DNA from: Nesterenkonia salmonea
GTDB lineage: Bacteria > Actinomycetota > Actinomycetes > Actinomycetales > Micrococcaceae
DNA length: 64,000 nucleotides
Direction of reading: 5' to 3'
NCBI RefSeq assembly: GCF_005771525.1
Contig: NZ_VAVZ01000017.1
Coordinates: 1 to 64,000, forward strand
Position 1 is the stretch's first letter, and every line of letters starts with the position of its first letter. The translations under genes and the position numbers were made by a program. Positions 36,836 through 42,729 of this stretch are shown here, piece by piece. The notes beneath the pieces were generated by a model, which searched no databases, was not told the DNA's origin, and worked only from the letters and a program-made list of their open reading frames with translations.

Positions 36836-36865
36836 GGCTGAACACCAGGGGTTTGATGTTCAGCC
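36836..36865. promoter_or_regulatory. Wider inverted repeat sharing the GTTCAG half-site
   Basis: GGCTGAAC at 36836-36843 and GTTCAGCC at 36858-36865 form a perfect 8-bp inverted repeat around a 14-base spacer. It overlaps the stop codon of the GntR gene. It could end the GntR transcript as a hairpin (no T run follows) or provide further half-sites for the TetR protein. Confidence 0.35.
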
Positions 36866-37549
36866 GTGGGTGGCAGCGTCCGCGCTGCGTCCTCCGGGTA
36901 TCAGCCGGTCGAGGGCCTCCTGCATGTGCTCCTCAATGGCACCAGCGAAAGCATCAGAGTCCCCTGAGGCGATGGCCTCGGTGATGCGACGGTGTTCTGC
37001 CACCTGGTCCTCGGGATCCCGGTATGTCCCCTGCAGCGCTGTCAGGCACATGCGGGTCTCTACCATGAGTGTCTGGTGCATCCGCTGCAGCCGTGGACTG
37101 CCCGCGCTGCTGACCAAGACCTCGTGAAAATGCAGGTCAGCGTCTGAGAGGTCGTCCAGCGCGCCGCTTTCGGCAGCGGACTGCATGGCCTCATAGGCGG
37201 ACCTGAGTGCAAGCACTGCCCGTTGTTGGCGTTGTCGGATGATGGTGCGCCCCGCCGCAGTTTCAATGGCGGTGCGGGCTGCGTAGAGGTCCCGGACCTC
37301 ATGCGCATCCAGTTCTTTGACGAAGAGGCCGCGGTGCGGTTCGGCACGCACCAGTCCCTCCTGTACTAGGCGCTGGGTAGCCTCACGAAGTGGGCCGCGG
37401 CTGACCCCGAACTCGGCCGCAAGGGTCGCCTCAGACAATTGAGTGCCGGGTCCCAGCCTGCCGAACATAATGGCCTCGCGCAGTTGGCGGGTGATGAGTC
37501 CGGCGGTGGACTCCCGGTTGACCCGCTTGAACGGCTGAGGGCTGGACAT
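36860..37549 (-). CDS. GntR-family regulator (FCD/FadR subgroup)
   Basis: A 229-residue regulator. The winged helix (residues 10-78) includes LSEATLAAEFGVSRGPLREA and GLVRAEPHRGLFVKEL. The all-helical FCD ligand domain (85-215) shows metal-binding-type residues (DADLHFHEVLVSSAG, EHRRITEAI). FCD regulators usually sense carboxylates and repress catabolic operons. The gene is the last of three on this strand, after the racemase paralogs, and a candidate operator lies directly in front of it. Confidence 0.9.
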   Translation of the reverse strand: MSSPQPFKRVNRESTAGLITRQLREAIMFGRLGPGTQLSEATLAAEFGVSRGPLREATQRLVQEGLVRAEPHRGLFVKELDAHEVRDLYAARTAIETAAGRTIIRQRQQRAVLALRSAYEAMQSAAESGALDDLSDADLHFHEVLVSSAGSPRLQRMHQTLMVETRMCLTALQGTYRDPEDQVAEHRRITEAIASGDSDAFAGAIEEHMQEALDRLIPGGRSADAATHG

Positions 37550-37566
37550 TCATGCTCCGATCGATG

Positions 37567-37580
37567 GATTGTTGACAATC
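37567..37580. promoter_or_regulatory. GntR operator copy 1 (GATTGTTGACAATC)
   Basis: A near-palindrome, ATTGT-TG-ACAAT with flanking G and C, in the 35-base gap between racemase 1 and the GntR gene. The identical 14-mer occurs at 39281-39294. ATTGT-N2-ACAAT fits the operator pattern of FCD-type GntR proteins. Confidence 0.7.
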
Positions 37581-37584
37581 GATT

Positions 37585-38355
37585 CTAGACGGCCCGCGGC
37601 TGCGCTGCGTTCAACGGGTCGAAAAGTGATCCCAGTCCCGGCAGCGTGGGCTGTTCCACTCCAGCGATTCGCATACCCTCCCATATGGTGACCTGGTTGG
37701 CCGTGAGTACGGGTTTACCCAGTGATTGTTCAAGGTCCGCTACCCATGCAAGCGAGTGCATAGCGGTATCCGGAACGAGTATTGCCTGGGCTTGTGGCAG
37801 ATCCACGTTTCGGATCATCGCGAGGAGATCCTCACGGGCCATGTGGCCTACCGCGGCGGCGGTGAACACTCCTTGGGCTTGGAAGTTCACCACTTCGATG
37901 CCACCGGCACGAAGGAATTCTTGAAAATGTGCAGCGAGAGTCTCTGGGTAGGAGGCGGCCACGGCCACCCGTTGCACTCCGAGTGTGTCCACGGCCCGGG
38001 CAAAGGCCAGCGACGTTGATGAGACGGGCCGTCCAGTCGCTTCAGCCAATTGGTCCACCTGTCGATGTGCGCCGTGCCACCCGTAGACGAAACTGCCTGA
38101 TGTGCAGGCCCACATCACCGAATCGACCTCGTGTTCGGCCAGCAGTCGTTCAGCTCCCTCACTCAACCGGGCGTGTGAGCCCGTTTCGAACAGAGCTTCA
38201 GGTGTGTGTTCGTCCACGCCGATGGTCGTAATAGTGACGGGCAGCCTCACAGACGCGCTGGCGGCGTCGTCCCTCAACCTGGCTTCAAGGGCAGGGTAAT
38301 CATCCTCTGCCGCGTGGCCCGGATAGAGAATGCCGACCGTTACTGCGTCGCTCAT
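37585..38355 (-). CDS. Asp/Glu-racemase/maleate-isomerase family protein, single-Cys variant
   Basis: A 256-residue member of the Asp/Glu/hydantoin racemase-maleate isomerase-arylmalonate decarboxylase superfamily. The first catalytic Cys is present (MWACTSGSF, Cys 84), but the site of the second Cys holds VPDTAMHSL (Asp 196). The segment LGKPVLTANQVTIWEGMR is typical of maleate isomerase-like members. Two-cysteine enzymes use both residues for racemisation or addition, so this protein should catalyse a different or one-sided reaction. It overlaps the next paralog by four bases. Confidence 0.85.
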   Translation of the reverse strand: MSDAVTVGILYPGHAAEDDYPALEARLRDDAASASVRLPVTITTIGVDEHTPEALFETGSHARLSEGAERLLAEHEVDSVMWACTSGSFVYGWHGAHRQVDQLAEATGRPVSSTSLAFARAVDTLGVQRVAVAASYPETLAAHFQEFLRAGGIEVVNFQAQGVFTAAAVGHMAREDLLAMIRNVDLPQAQAILVPDTAMHSLAWVADLEQSLGKPVLTANQVTIWEGMRIAGVEQPTLPGLGSLFDPLNAAQPRAV

Positions 38356-39242
38356 ACCGGAGGCGCTCCTTCCCGGTCCGCTGTGTCAACTGGTTCTGGG
38401 GTCACGTTCGCACACGCCCGGAGTGCTGACCCGGGTCCGAAGTAGTCCCGTTGAGCACGTCTGAGTGCAGCCCAGATGGTCGCCTGGTTAGCCGAGATCA
38501 CTGGTTTGCCGAGATCCTGCTCCAGCTGGTCGAGAATTTCATACGTCGGCAGATTTGTGCAGGAGACCACGACCGCTTCAGCGTCATCGGAATCCGCACG
38601 CCGAACCAGGTCGTACGTGGTCTGCCAGGGCACGGTCCAAATGCGACCAGTGAGCCCAAGATTGGCCGTGTGCACTAGCTTGACCCCAGCCTCGGCAAAA
38701 AACTGGCCAAACAGTGCCCCAATAGCCTCGTCATAAGGAGTTGCAGCGGCGATTGTAGTGATCCCCAGAGCGTGAACGGCCTCTAGGAGAGCTCCTGAAG
38801 TTGTCACCGCGCTCGGAGTCCGCTTACGCACAGGAACGGGGTGCTCCTGTGGGTAGACATGCGCTGACTCCACCGCGTAGGCCGCATCTGATGCTGCTTT
38901 CCTGCCGGCTTCGGCTATGGCGTGCAACAACCGACGTTCACCAGCCAGACCTCGGACAAAACTGCCGGATGTGCAGCCGTACACGTACCCAGAAGGGTCA
39001 GTCGCTGACACGGCCTGCACCGCAGCGGTAATCAATTCTGGGCGGGAAATCTCGCGAGCCTGCTGCACAGTGACAGCCAGGGGTTCGAACGGCGTTCGGG
39101 TGAACAGCAGGTCAAGCTGGTCGAACCCAAAAGTGTCCCGGGAGAACTGCCGCAGCTCACGGTCCAAAGCCATGTCATAGGGCACGACGACGCCCATGGG
39201 AACCGCCAGTGGAGACTGTTGAGGTTGGTGTGCCGGTGTCAT
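38352..39242 (-). CDS. Maleate-isomerase-like Asp/Glu-racemase family protein, two-Cys form
   Basis: A 296-residue paralog of the preceding protein with both catalytic cysteines: YGCTSGSFVRG (Cys 90) and VVVSCTNLPTYEILDQL (Cys 218), then LGKPVISANQATIWAALR. Such proteins isomerise maleate to fumarate or racemise acidic substrates. A roughly 20-residue insertion rich in Pro and basic residues (HPVPVRKRTPS) lies near residue 130. ATG 39242 is chosen for AAGGGG upstream. It is the first gene of the leftward operon and is divergent from the dehydrogenase. Confidence 0.87.
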   Translation of the reverse strand: MTPAHQPQQSPLAVPMGVVVPYDMALDRELRQFSRDTFGFDQLDLLFTRTPFEPLAVTVQQAREISRPELITAAVQAVSATDPSGYVYGCTSGSFVRGLAGERRLLHAIAEAGRKAASDAAYAVESAHVYPQEHPVPVRKRTPSAVTTSGALLEAVHALGITTIAAATPYDEAIGALFGQFFAEAGVKLVHTANLGLTGRIWTVPWQTTYDLVRRADSDDAEAVVVSCTNLPTYEILDQLEQDLGKPVISANQATIWAALRRAQRDYFGPGSALRACANVTPEPVDTADREGAPPV

Positions 39243-39280
39243 GTATACCCCTTGAATGACGGCGACAACGATCACTGCAG

Positions 39281-39294
39281 GATTGTTGACAATC
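39281..39294. promoter_or_regulatory. GntR operator copy 2 (GATTGTTGACAATC)
   Basis: Identical to the 14-mer at 37567-37580 and flanked by CTGCAG and TGCAG, which extends the dyad. It lies in the 80-base gap between the divergent starts of racemase 2 (39242) and the D-2-hydroxyacid dehydrogenase (39323), so one site can control both arms of the locus. Confidence 0.7.
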
Positions 39295-39322
39295 TGCAGA
39301 TTGAGTTCCTAATGTAGCACCC

Positions 39323-40324
39323 ATGTCAGAGTCTCGTCCGGTCATCACAGTTCTTCGCCCCTCCGACCCGGATTCTCCGGCTCACGAACCCCCCGGACTT
39401 GAGCAGATTTCCGACAGGGCAGATATCCGCCTTACCGACGCCGACCACATTGTCGAGGACATCGCGGGGTCGGACGCGCTCTTCCTCTGGGACTTCTTCT
39501 CCGGTGCCCTGCAAAAGGCATGGCCGTCAGCGGACCGCTTGAAATGGATCCATGTCGCCGCTGCCGGGGTGGACAAGCTGCTCTTCGATGAGCTGAACGA
39601 CTCAGATGTGATGGTGACCAATGCGCAGGGCATTTTCGACCGACCCATCGCGGAGTGGGTCCTCGGAGCAGTTCTGGCAGAAGCCAAAGATTTCGCTGGA
39701 AACTACCGCCTCAAAACCACCAAAACCTGGGACCACCGGGAGACCAAACGCGTACAAGGTTCCCGAGCCATGGTGATCGGCACAGGTGCCATCGGTCGCG
39801 AAATCGCGCGCCTGCTCAGCGCAGTGGGTATCGAAGTGACTGGGGCAGGCCGCACAGAACGCGAGAACGACGAGGACTTCGGCGTCGTCGTGCCCTCAGA
39901 AACTCTCGAAGAGCACATCGGTGATTACGACATCATCGTCAACGCCGCCCCACTGACCCCCGCTACAACCGGTCTCATAGGTGCCACAACCTTAGCTGCG
40001 ATGAAGCCCGGAGCGCATCTGATCAATATTGGGCGTGGAGCCTCGGTGGACCAGCAAGCGCTGGTGGCTGCACTGCATGACGGGCCGCTGGGGTTCGCGT
40101 CATTGGATGTCTTCGATGAAGAGCCTCTGCCCCAAGATTCCGACCTCTGGGGCCTGGAGAACGTAATGATCGCAGCCCATATGTCAGGAGACGTCCACGG
40201 GTGGCGTGACTCCTTGGCTGAGCTGTTCATCGATAACGCTCAACGATGGTTGGATGGAAAAGACTTGGTCAACGTGGTTGACAAAGACAAGGGATACGTC
40301 CCAGGAAAGAGGAGCGCATCATGA
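39323..40324 (+). CDS. D-2-hydroxyacid dehydrogenase
   Basis: A 333-residue NAD(P)-dependent enzyme: cofactor fold VIGTGAIGREIARLL, then catalytic Arg in INIGRGASVDQQAL, Glu in DVFDEEPLPQDS and His in IAAHMSGDVHGW. It interconverts a D-2-hydroxy acid and a 2-oxo acid. The N-terminal substrate domain (HVAAAGVDKLLFDEL) is normal. The stop overlaps the amidase start by four bases. The regulator and racemase neighbours suggest an acidic substrate. Confidence 0.9.
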   Translation: MSESRPVITVLRPSDPDSPAHEPPGLEQISDRADIRLTDADHIVEDIAGSDALFLWDFFSGALQKAWPSADRLKWIHVAAAGVDKLLFDELNDSDVMVTNAQGIFDRPIAEWVLGAVLAEAKDFAGNYRLKTTKTWDHRETKRVQGSRAMVIGTGAIGREIARLLSAVGIEVTGAGRTERENDEDFGVVVPSETLEEHIGDYDIIVNAAPLTPATTGLIGATTLAAMKPGAHLINIGRGASVDQQALVAALHDGPLGFASLDVFDEEPLPQDSDLWGLENVMIAAHMSGDVHGWRDSLAELFIDNAQRWLDGKDLVNVVDKDKGYVPGKRSAS

Positions 40325-41742
40325 GGGATCTGGTTGAGCTGACTGCCGCCGAACTGCTCGAGGGCTACGCCGCGGGTAGTTTCACACCCGTGGACGCCAC
40401 GGAGTCCGCCCTGAGACGTATCGACGAGTGCGACGGTGATCTTAACGCCTTTGTGCTGGTGGACCGTGAGTCCGCCATCTCCTCTGCTGAAGCGTCAGCC
40501 GCCCGGTGGAAGGCTGGTGAGACCTTGGGCATTGGCGACGGCGTACCGACCTCTATCAAAGACATGTTCATCACAGCAGGCTGGCCTACCCTGCGCGGGT
40601 CGACCCTTATTGACGACGCCGGCCCATGGGACGCTGACGCCCCCTGCGTAGCCCGGCTCCGTGAGACCGGTGCGGTGCTGCTAGGCAAAGTCACCACCCC
40701 GGAGTTCGCCTGGAAGGGCACCACGGACAGTGAGCGGTACGGTGCCACCGGAAACCCCTGGGACCCCGCCACCACGGCCGGCGGCTCGTCCGGAGGCTCC
40801 TCAGCTGCAGTCGGAGCGGGCATGGGGGCTTGGTCGGTGGGTACCGATGCAGGCGGCTCGGTCCGGATCCCCGCGGCATTCACGGGCACAGTAGCGCTGA
40901 AGCCGACGTTCGGAACAGTGCCGATGTTCCCCGCCTCGCCGTTCGGAACCCTGGCACACGCCGGACCGATGACTAGGACTGTGGCGGACGCCGCCATGTT
41001 GATGGACATCGTCTCAGGCTTCGATTCACGGGACTGGGCTGCGCTGCCCACCCCTGCCGGATCGTTTACAGACGGGCTGGAGGACGGAATTGCTGGCCTG
41101 CGGATCGCTTATTCACCGACTCTCGGATTCGGAGAGAACGCCCCGGACATCGATCGACTGGTGCGGCAGGCAGTGGGGGAGCTTGAGGCCATGGGCGCGG
41201 TTGTCGAGGAGGTCGATCCGGGGTTTGCGGACCCGGTGGAGGCCTTCCACGTGCTGTGGTTCACCGGTGCCGCCAAGGTGGTTGCGGCCTACGGGCCGGA
41301 GGCGCTGGCCAAAGTGGACCCGGGCCTCCGGGAAGGAATAGAGCAGTACGCCGACGCCACCGCACAGGACTACCTTGACGCCACCGCTGTGCGGATGGAA
41401 CTGGGAGTGCTGATGGGAGCCTTTCACCAGAATTATGACCTTCTGGTGACTCCGACGATGCCTATCACCGCTTTCGACCGCACCCGCCAGGCTCCCGAGG
41501 GGTGGAAGTCAGACCTATGGACCTCCTGGACGCCCTACACCTACCCGTTCAACATGACCCAGCAGCCTGCGGCTTCTGTGCCGTGCGGGGTGGCCGACAA
41601 CGGGCTTCCCGTAGGACTTCAGATCGTGGCTGCCCGAACGCAGGATCAGCTTGTACTGCGTGCCGCTCGAGCATATGAGAAGGCATCAGGGGAGAAGTTC
41701 TCCCGCCCGGTATCTGTACCCGCGGGGCAGGGAACGGCTTAA
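40321..41742 (+). CDS. Amidase-signature-family hydrolase
   Basis: A 473-residue amidase with the full Ser-cisSer-Lys triad: Lys 80 (TSIKDMF), cis-Ser about 156 in GGSSGGSSA and nucleophile Ser 180 in GTDAGGSVRIPAAF. The whole length is typical of stand-alone amidases rather than the GatA subunit, since gatB and gatC are absent. It should release ammonia or an amine from an amide. It is the middle gene of the rightward operon. Confidence 0.92.
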   Translation: MRDLVELTAAELLEGYAAGSFTPVDATESALRRIDECDGDLNAFVLVDRESAISSAEASAARWKAGETLGIGDGVPTSIKDMFITAGWPTLRGSTLIDDAGPWDADAPCVARLRETGAVLLGKVTTPEFAWKGTTDSERYGATGNPWDPATTAGGSSGGSSAAVGAGMGAWSVGTDAGGSVRIPAAFTGTVALKPTFGTVPMFPASPFGTLAHAGPMTRTVADAAMLMDIVSGFDSRDWAALPTPAGSFTDGLEDGIAGLRIAYSPTLGFGENAPDIDRLVRQAVGELEAMGAVVEEVDPGFADPVEAFHVLWFTGAAKVVAAYGPEALAKVDPGLREGIEQYADATAQDYLDATAVRMELGVLMGAFHQNYDLLVTPTMPITAFDRTRQAPEGWKSDLWTSWTPYTYPFNMTQQPAASVPCGVADNGLPVGLQIVAARTQDQLVLRAARAYEKASGEKFSRPVSVPAGQGTA

Positions 41743-41744
41743 GC

Positions 41745-42266
41745 GTGGCCAGATACATTACGGTCACGCTAGAAAAGCGGGGCGTGACGTGCCTGGCCAA
41801 ACTGCTCGACGATGCCGCCCCCCGCACCTGTGCGGCCGTATGGGACGCGCTGCCGCAATCAGGACAGGTCTATCACGGCAAGTACGCACGCAATGAGATC
41901 TATCACCTCGTTGAGGCCTTCGCCGCGCAAGAGCCCGGAAAGGAGAATACAACCGTGACGCCGATACCGGGGGACCTGTGTTACTTCGCCTTCGATTCCG
42001 ATGACCTGGGCAACCCCGCCTACGGGTATGACTCAGGCGCAGATGTGCGCGCTGAGGAGCCGACTCAAGCCAAGCCGATTATTGACCTGGCGGTGTTCTA
42101 CGGCAGGAACAATCTGCTGATCAACGGTGACCAGGGCTGGATCCCCGGAAACGTATTCGGCACGATCGTTGAGGGTCTAGAGGATTTGGCAGAGGCTTGT
42201 CAATCCATCTGGATGGACGGTGCGCGGGGAGAGACGTTGACCTTCGCCCGGTCCCACGAAGACTGA
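41745..42266 (+). CDS. DUF3830 (cyclophilin-like) protein
   Basis: A 173-residue protein matching DUF3830: RYITVTLEKRGVTCLAKLLDDAAP, the WDALPQSGQVYHGKYARNEIY segment and a core of beta strands ending in TIVEGLEDLAEACQSIWMDG. The fold is cyclophilin-like, but the function is unknown; family members repeatedly sit beside amidases and maleate-isomerase-like genes. The GTG start is three bases after the amidase stop. Confidence 0.82.
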   Translation: MARYITVTLEKRGVTCLAKLLDDAAPRTCAAVWDALPQSGQVYHGKYARNEIYHLVEAFAAQEPGKENTTVTPIPGDLCYFAFDSDDLGNPAYGYDSGADVRAEEPTQAKPIIDLAVFYGRNNLLINGDQGWIPGNVFGTIVEGLEDLAEACQSIWMDGARGETLTFARSHED

Positions 42267-42303: not shown

Positions 42304-42729
42304 TCACAGGCGCGATGCGAGTTCACGGATCCGCGCAGAGAGATCCTCGCGAATCATCACCATGCGCTCATGCCCTTCAACCCCTTGCTCAGACGGTTCC
42401 ACTGTTTCCCAGCGTTCTACAGTGACGCCGTCCAGCCCCGGAACCTGAGCTTCAGCGCCGATCACAATCACGTGGCCGGCTGAGCGCATCGCTTCCTCCG
42501 TCAACTGGGTCGGCGACTGGTCAGAGATGTCAACGCCCACATCGCTCAGCACAGCAGCTGAGAGCGGATTGACCTGCTTTCCAGCCTGGGTTCCCACTGA
42601 GGTGACGGTCACGGCGTCGAGCTTTCCGGCTTCCTGCAATTCCTTGCGCAACAGGCCGGCGGCCATCTGAGACTTCCCGCCGTTCTTCACGCAGACGAAC
42701 AGCACACCGGAAGAAGGGACAGACATCAT
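42304..42729 (-). CDS. arsC: Low-molecular-weight phosphatase-fold arsenate reductase (mycothiol type)
   Basis: A 141-residue LMW-PTP-fold protein with P-loop CVKNGGKS (Cys 13, Lys 19 in place of the PTP Arg), then [11 protein letters not shown] and [15 protein letters not shown]. The C-X5-K variant is known in the actinobacterial arsenate-mycothiol transferases of the Corynebacterium ArsC1 group. The start overlaps the pstB stop by four bases, so it is translated together with the phosphate transporter, through which arsenate enters. A small phosphatase role is the alternative. Confidence 0.75.

Follow-up and report, generated by a model that had tools for sequence, protein, structure and literature searches.

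A conserved GntR/FCD-controlled gene cluster with a DUF3830 protein in Nesterenkonia salmonea: candidate core of an actinobacterial regulon for the catabolism of ectoine-type solutes

A 64,000-nucleotide stretch of Nesterenkonia salmonea DNA (contig NZ_VAVZ01000017.1, positions 1-64,000; the window) carries a cluster of six genes for a GntR/FCD regulator, two Amdase/EutA-like isomerases named here RacA and RacB, a D-2-hydroxyacid dehydrogenase (DHDH), an amidase and a DUF3830 protein (Table 1). Gene families were assigned with Pfam and NCBIfam profile scans and their curated cut-offs. The genes form two divergent arms that are tightly packed: the open reading frames (ORFs) of RacA and RacB overlap by 4 nt, the amidase overlaps DHDH also by 4 nt, and the DUF3830 gene begins 2 nt past the amidase. 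Coordinates and profile matches thus bear out the families and the divergent, near-adjacent arrangement given for these six ORFs in a preliminary description of the locus, which reported neither the two perfect inverted repeats of the cluster nor the partner genes elsewhere in the genome. On balance, and with moderate confidence, the cluster is read here as the core of a catabolic regulon that is under GntR/FCD control in Actinomycetota and serves an ectoine-type compatible solute, most likely ectoine or 5-hydroxyectoine.

Table 1. Genes and predicted operators of the cluster, in window coordinates
Feature	Coordinates	Strand	Evidence or position
GntR/FCD-family regulator, predicted regulon repressor	36860..37549	-	Pfam FCD 90.7 bits, GntR 64.6 bits
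Operator 1, perfect inverted repeat, core ATTGT-nn-ACAAT	37567..37580		between RacA stop and GntR start
RacA, Amdase/EutA-like isomerase, Cys84/Asp196 pair	37585..38355	-	Pfam Amdase 84.8 bits, cut-off 25.9
RacB, second Amdase/EutA-like isomerase, Cys101 and Cys239	38352..39275	-	Pfam Amdase 71.5 bits
Operator 2, perfect inverted repeat	39281..39294		between the divergent arms (RacB/DHDH)
DHDH, NAD-dependent D-2-hydroxyacid dehydrogenase	39323..40324	+	Pfam 2-Hacid_dh_C 159.8 bits
Amidase-signature hydrolase	40321..41742	+	NCBIfam NF004815 708 bits, cut-off 506
DUF3830 protein, long form, cyclophilin-like fold, Pictet-Spenglerase relative	41745..42266	+	PF12903 223.3 bits, gathering score 26

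Both inverted repeats of the window have the sequence GATTGTTGACAATC. In the 3.28-Mb host genome (G000) the core of the operator occurs in five exact copies, against 0.75 expected from base composition and none for the pattern read backwards, which served as the control in the operator scans, and all five stand at pathway genes. Besides the two in the window, one lies in the gap between divergent genes of the succinate-semialdehyde dehydrogenase (SSADH) family and for a class-III aminotransferase (AT3; contig C75), another 17 nt upstream of the gene for a FAD-FeS protein of 977 aa, a relative of D-2-hydroxyglutarate dehydrogenase (355 bits, under the YdiJ cut-off of 1350), and the last immediately upstream of a class I/II aminotransferase gene (contig C92). 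The AT3 and SSADH-family genes, assigned by profile, are thereby found under the same predicted operator as the core and correspond, by family, to Atf/DoeD and Ssd/DoeC of the eut/doe systems. A one-mismatch copy precedes an EhuABCD-like importer cassette on contig C72; it lies roughly 60 nt upstream of the Met with which a likely lipoprotein signal begins, a start that is itself inferred. Two other sites (C86, C97) match the longer pattern with one mismatch and are located within or next to unrelated ORFs. Because aminotransferases, SSADH, FAD-FeS dehydrogenase and a transporter elsewhere share the operator, the six window genes are the core and not the whole pathway. The regulator reaches no specific NCBIfam cut-off (best TIGR03338, 138.5 against 271.5 bits) and scores 23.6 against 480 bits with the EhuR/EnuR model, which places it outside the MocR-type EnuR group. 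An alternative ATG of RacB, at 39242, would sit 39 nt from operator 2.

The same operator accompanies the cluster in its relatives. In 98 loci, made up of 80 DUF3830 loci from named genomes and 18 loci of the long DUF3830 type from a phylum-even sample (the short-form loci L132 and L133 being omitted), 184 of 186 exact copies are placed between -60 and +300 relative to the 5' end of a pathway gene, and the backwards control gives none. With one mismatch allowed, 198 of 203 copies lie near pathway genes, in 92 of the 98 loci. A GntR match is absent from all six loci that have no operator copy (L019, L059, L116, L118, L121, L122), and some operator-bearing loci also have no GntR gene in the stretch (e.g. 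L009, L010, L013, L014). The RacB/DHDH gap, where operator 2 lies, is the most frequent operator site among relatives, and the position of operator 1 is retained in Nesterenkonia (e.g. L002-L007). At the level of whole genomes, a hand-made tally of 16 genomes picked for carrying the cluster assigns 59 of the 71 exact copies to pathway genes, with a control of 0 in 15 of the genomes and 1 in G409; the host, N. haasae (G396) and N. ebinurensis (G398) agree in their five targets, and G398 has an additional copy. Three Nesterenkonia-type genomes (L155 3492-6072, L180, L184) carry tandem class I/II aminotransferase paralogs with an operator directly before the first.

The gene set itself is conserved well beyond the genus. 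The closest DUF3830 relatives of the window protein are from Nesterenkonia (94-78% identity), and all 80 DUF3830 loci contain at least one partner among RacA, RacB, DHDH, amidase, AT3 and SSADH. Both Rac paralogs are present in 55 of the 80, AT3 with SSADH in 52, RacA, RacB, DHDH and amidase together in 47 (37 of 69 outside Nesterenkonia), and these four plus GntR in 46. Many of these loci are near-identical ones from Amycolatopsis, so that the counts are not independent, and some stretches end early at contig or flank ends; ORFs in unannotated loci were called by a crude codon-composition script, and selected proteins were checked against family models. A fairer test of co-occurrence is the phylum-even sample of 396 Actinomycetota genomes, in which DUF3830 is found in 43 genomes, the long form (at least 187 bits, the remaining matches scoring at most 114) in 19 and RacA in 24. 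Long DUF3830 and RacA occur together in 18 genomes (Fisher's test, 4e-25), both counts being taken, on the basis of shared handles, as drawn on the same 396 genomes; in the nineteenth long-form genome (G205), where RacA has no match, the DUF3830 gene sits on a 5-kb contig. All four of RacA, RacB, DHDH and amidase surround the long DUF3830 gene in 15 of 18 even-sample stretches, the locus under study excluded. This co-occurrence rules out a chance cluster, the outcome against which the preliminary description had proposed looking for DUF3830 and the two paralogs in related genomes, and together with the shared operator it supports the view that the genes are one functional unit. The six genomes with RacA only (one family, L197-L202) have no DUF3830; EhuBCDA adjoins RacA in all six and DHDH in four, and several also show, by eye, a luciferase-like monooxygenase ORF. 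A single plasmid search for DUF3830 returned only two distant genes, and on a Caballeronia plasmid (L112 11992-12474) GntR, DUF3830 and FAD oxidoreductase genes are consecutive, with genes for a class-V aminotransferase and for an ABC importer of the branched-chain type next to them.

The enzymes of the core appear intact. RacA and RacB pass the Pfam Amdase (PF17645) cut-off and carry the catalytic Cys, which places them in the arylmalonate decarboxylase/maleate isomerase/EutA superfamily, and maleate isomerases and arylmalonate decarboxylase are among their nearest solved relatives. Among 75 aligned relatives of RacA, 71 have the Cys/Asp pair and 4 have Ser/Asp instead; the Cys/Cys of RacB is kept in 75 of 77, the other two being unaligned at the first Cys. 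Because this difference is fixed among relatives, it is unlikely, to judge from the residues, that the two paralogs are redundant copies. In DHDH, Arg238, Glu267 and His286 are present in 74 of 76 aligned relatives (two are unaligned there), and in the amidase Lys80, Ser156 and Ser180 are present in 64 of 70 (five partial, one misaligned); we take both sets to be catalytic. The chemistry proposed in the preliminary description, with amide hydrolysis, isomerisation and a D-2-hydroxyacid step, therefore stands in kind, since it fits the families and almost every aligned relative retains the usual catalytic residues, but it does not stand as a complete pathway made of six genes.

Fold and profile comparison show that DUF3830 shares a cyclophilin-like domain with the Pictet-Spenglerases McbB and KslB, to which it is homologous. 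The structures compared were 3x27, deposited as cucumopine synthase, and 9ns6, and the sequence-level match of KslB to DUF3830 is weak (E 0.23). DUF3830 has 173 aa against the 317-337 aa of McbB and KslB and is without their extra C-terminal or N-terminal part; it also stands in catabolic loci, whereas the Pictet-Spenglerases stand in biosynthetic ones. One His is aligned between the families; the available portion of the review PMC7024544 does not name the McbB residues, and no shared catalytic residue is claimed beyond this His. DUF3830 is not classed as a Pictet-Spenglerase, a name that stands for amine-carbonyl condensation activity. The family has a conserved His44/Glu67/Tyr119 set, its solved structure 3kop bears no function name, and no paper mentioning DUF3830 was found in the literature search. 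In other Actinomycetota a short form of DUF3830 (L101-L111, L132, L133) adjoins urate oxidase, HIUase, M20 (allantoate amidohydrolase-like) or urease genes, a neighbourhood that would fit C-N cleavage, as in ureidoglycolate breakdown. Downstream of the DUF3830 gene of the window, a low-molecular-weight phosphatase/arsenate-reductase-like gene (42304-42729, under the arsenate reductase cut-offs) lies between it and a PstB-like phosphate transporter gene.

Several lines of evidence connect the regulon with osmolytes. EhuABCD-like importers are found in 2 of the 80 named-genome loci and 5 of the 18 even-sample loci, ProP-like MFS importers in 3 and 4, and BCCT carriers in 0 and 3, respectively. 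Of the 80 loci, 12 have a gene for a EutD-like hydrolase, accompanied by an M20 deacylase gene in 11 and by a class I/II aminotransferase gene in 10. In Homoserinimonas (L015) the importer proteins scanned exceed the curated ectoine cut-offs (EhuB 262/191, EhuC 222/197, EhuA 358/345 bits), and an 18.6-kb Homoserinimonas locus (L204) with five exact operator copies unites DUF3830, RacB, EhuABCD, RacA, DHDH, M20, class I/II aminotransferase, EutD-like, GntR, SSADH, FAD-FeS, AT3 and amidase genes, and so shows side by side what is dispersed in Nesterenkonia genomes. The host carries an ectoine synthase gene (C60:14774-15142; PF06339, 185.6 bits) next to a class-III aminotransferase-like gene (L203, L210), and therefore probably makes ectoine. 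Elsewhere, a tartrate dehydrogenase gene (529/470 bits, above cut-off) follows SSADH and an operator in L081, and a RidA-family gene follows an operator copy in L177. In Segeticoccus (L022 9540-10520) a threo-3-hydroxy-L-aspartate ammonia-lyase gene (539/452 bits) lies directly behind DUF3830, a single case that would fit hydroxyectoine.

Against a regulon for ectoine-type solutes stand a number of observations. The EutD/DoeA ectoine hydrolase has no match in the host genome, and at E<=1e-60 EutD is absent from 28 of 33 cluster-bearing genomes; the other five have one, none over the curated cut-off, and the EutD-like protein of L009 reaches 420 of the 613 bits required. A direct EutD-based ectoine pathway in the host is hence ruled out. 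RacA (107.3 bits) and RacB (84.3 bits) fall far short of the EutA equivalog cut-off of 318. The host cassette is complete, and its EhuB-like protein scores 139 against the ectoine cut-off of 190.9 bits; of what are presumably the five ligand positions of EhuB it differs at two, retaining the Glu, an aromatic residue at two positions and the Arg, with Ser replacing one aromatic; the more distant relatives keep all three aromatics. The importer in L007 is of the SBF family, not a known osmolyte carrier, and SSADH with an aminotransferase would, by family, also fit substrates like gamma-aminobutyrate (GABA). As for the operator, a window scan allowing up to two mismatches gives 3 matches against 1.72 expected from shuffles, which is no excess, so that only the exact copies are informative. 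For 12 of the 71 whole-genome copies the target is unexplained: one in G398 (L181), two in G417 (L179 and, within a long ORF, L178), three in G403 (L192 twice, L207) and six in G409 (L189, L195, L196 twice, L208, L209). EutB, EutC and EutE were not seen beside the core, and no whole-genome search was made for them.

These observations leave room for a competing explanation, a real if minor possibility, in which the same regulon degrades another small nitrogenous solute, such as an N-acylated amino acid that resembles GABA or diaminobutyrate, or a zwitterionic osmolyte of a different kind, with an Ehu-like importer that has drifted and EutD-like genes that mark only the ectoine-taking relatives. 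The missing EutD genes would be explained in this way, as would the variation in importer families and the distance of the Ehu-like proteins outside L015 and L058 (31-36% identity), and GABA-transaminase and SSADH are the neighbouring families of the two partner enzymes. However, in Homoserinimonas a contiguous cluster combines ectoine-type Ehu and EutD-like genes with the same operator and core, most importer types belong to osmolyte families (betaine/proline-type among relatives), and the host has the gene to make ectoine itself. Very unlikely is the pathway of the preliminary description, in which the amidase frees a maleate- or malonate-type acid, RacA and RacB isomerise or decarboxylate it and the hydroxy acid is the substrate of DHDH. 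This pathway agrees with the nearest solved relatives of RacA and RacB, and the amidase and DHDH are intact, but it leaves the co-regulated AT3, SSADH, class I/II aminotransferase and osmolyte importers without a role, and both paralogs miss the NCBIfam arylmalonate decarboxylase cut-off (84.9 and 61.2 against 225 bits). Nor was a gene seen beside the cluster that points to the maleamate, malonamate or hydantoin substrates suggested there; what relatives carry instead are EhuABCD, ProP-like and BCCT transporters and ectoine-hydrolase-like genes. A side branch of ureide or purine breakdown, suggested by the neighbours of the short DUF3830 genes, is most improbable, given that the long and short forms are about 26-32% identical with different neighbours and that the core partners of the long form are not seen in L132 or L133.

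For the favoured ectoine-type substrate, a route can be proposed in which we infer the substrate and every reaction from the computed gene set, operator, partner genes, catalytic residues and DUF3830 homology. The solute would be taken up by an EhuABCD-type, ProP-like or BCCT importer. Where a EutD-like gene is present, EutD, the M20 deacylase and the class I/II aminotransferase would lead to 4-amino- or 4-acetamido-2-oxobutyrate; the step to a 2-oxo acid agrees with the genes for class I/II aminotransferase, RidA and amino acid dehydrogenase that various relatives carry. If EutD is lacking, as in the host, RacA and RacB may remove the alpha proton, causing epimerisation or, in hydroxyectoine, loss of the 5-OH. 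The resulting cyclic C=N would be hydrolysed by DUF3830, as happens to the imine in its half of a Pictet-Spengler reaction, and release of the acetyl part would fall to the amidase. Judged by their families, DUF3830 and the amidase are the best candidates for ring opening in EutD-less genomes, after RacA and RacB have acted on the alpha carbon. DHDH would subsequently reduce the 2-oxo acid to the (R)-2-hydroxy acid, AT3 and SSADH would convert the 4-amine into a carboxylate, giving D-malate, and the FAD-FeS enzyme or a tartrate/D-malate dehydrogenase would feed D-malate to central metabolism. DHDH, the FAD-FeS enzyme and tartrate/D-malate dehydrogenase suggest a D-2-hydroxyacid intermediate, and AT3 and SSADH the conversion of a terminal amine into a carboxylate; on the four-carbon skeleton of ectoine the two would give D-malate. 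In Ruegeria pomeroyi the EutA and EutB steps have been proposed to yield 2-methyl-1,6-dihydropyrimidine-4-carboxylate, the activities of EutABC being called unknown in the available portions of PMC5924519 and PMC8739950; this compound would be a fitting DUF3830 substrate. The full proposal, that RacA and RacB create the cyclic C=N of an EutD-independent 5-hydroxyectoine/ectoine route, that it is hydrolysed by DUF3830, which would be the first member with a catabolic role in the Pictet-Spenglerase fold family, that carbon exits as D-malate via a D-2-hydroxyacid, and that short DUF3830 proteins do kindred C-N cleavage (e.g. of ureidoglycolate) in purine breakdown, is speculative and, in all its parts at once, rather doubtful.

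In comparison with the ectoine/5-hydroxyectoine catabolism of Proteobacteria (ehuABCD/uehABC-eutABCDE-ssd-atf; doe), as far as it is set out in the available portions of PMC5924519, PMC8739950 and PMC5320631, the actinobacterial regulon has in common an importer, a EutA-like protein, AT3, an SSADH-family dehydrogenase, substrate-type control by the GntR superfamily and, in some relatives, a EutD-like gene. It differs in having two EutA-like paralogs, the additional DHDH, amidase, DUF3830 and FAD-FeS enzymes, no EutD in the host, and an FCD-type regulator instead of the MocR-type EutR whose proteobacterial regulon is described in PMC5320631. The half-sites of operator 2, ATTGT and ACAAT, are those reported for the MocR-type ectoine regulator EnuR, with a spacer of 2 here and 6 there (ATTGTnnnnnnACAAT, available part of PMC8739950). 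With the arylmalonate decarboxylase/maleate isomerase/EutA superfamily, RacA and RacB share the Cys-based active site and the Pfam Amdase match, whereas the Cys/Asp pair of RacA and the missed EutA and arylmalonate decarboxylase equivalog cut-offs set them apart. Putative Gram-positive ectoine clusters found through EutD, marked in PMC13188858 as unvalidated and lacking biochemical proof, likewise consist of EutD-like, aminotransferase and importer genes in Actinomycetota, without a eutE-type deacetylase being seen. EutD-less clusters and a GntR/FCD regulon were not found described in the available portion of that source, and the terms amidase, racemase, hydroxyacid dehydrogenase and DUF are absent from its text. 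Arthrobacter Rue61a has been predicted to scavenge ectoine (PMC3534580, in part), PMC9608346 mentions ectoine in general terms only in the part available, and no title on a GntR ectoine regulon of Actinobacteria appeared among the matches listed in the literature search. The system is probably one of osmolyte catabolism with a different regulator, extra enzymes and, in all likelihood, other chemistry, and its route is most likely not yet described.

As a result, a list of family names becomes a regulon that can be tested, its operator, partner genes and substrate class being predicted, and DUF3830 is assigned to a superfamily, with a conserved set of His, Glu and Tyr and two catabolic settings. 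The regulon proposed here also suggests a way in which ectoines could be recycled by actinobacteria, many of which are halophilic.

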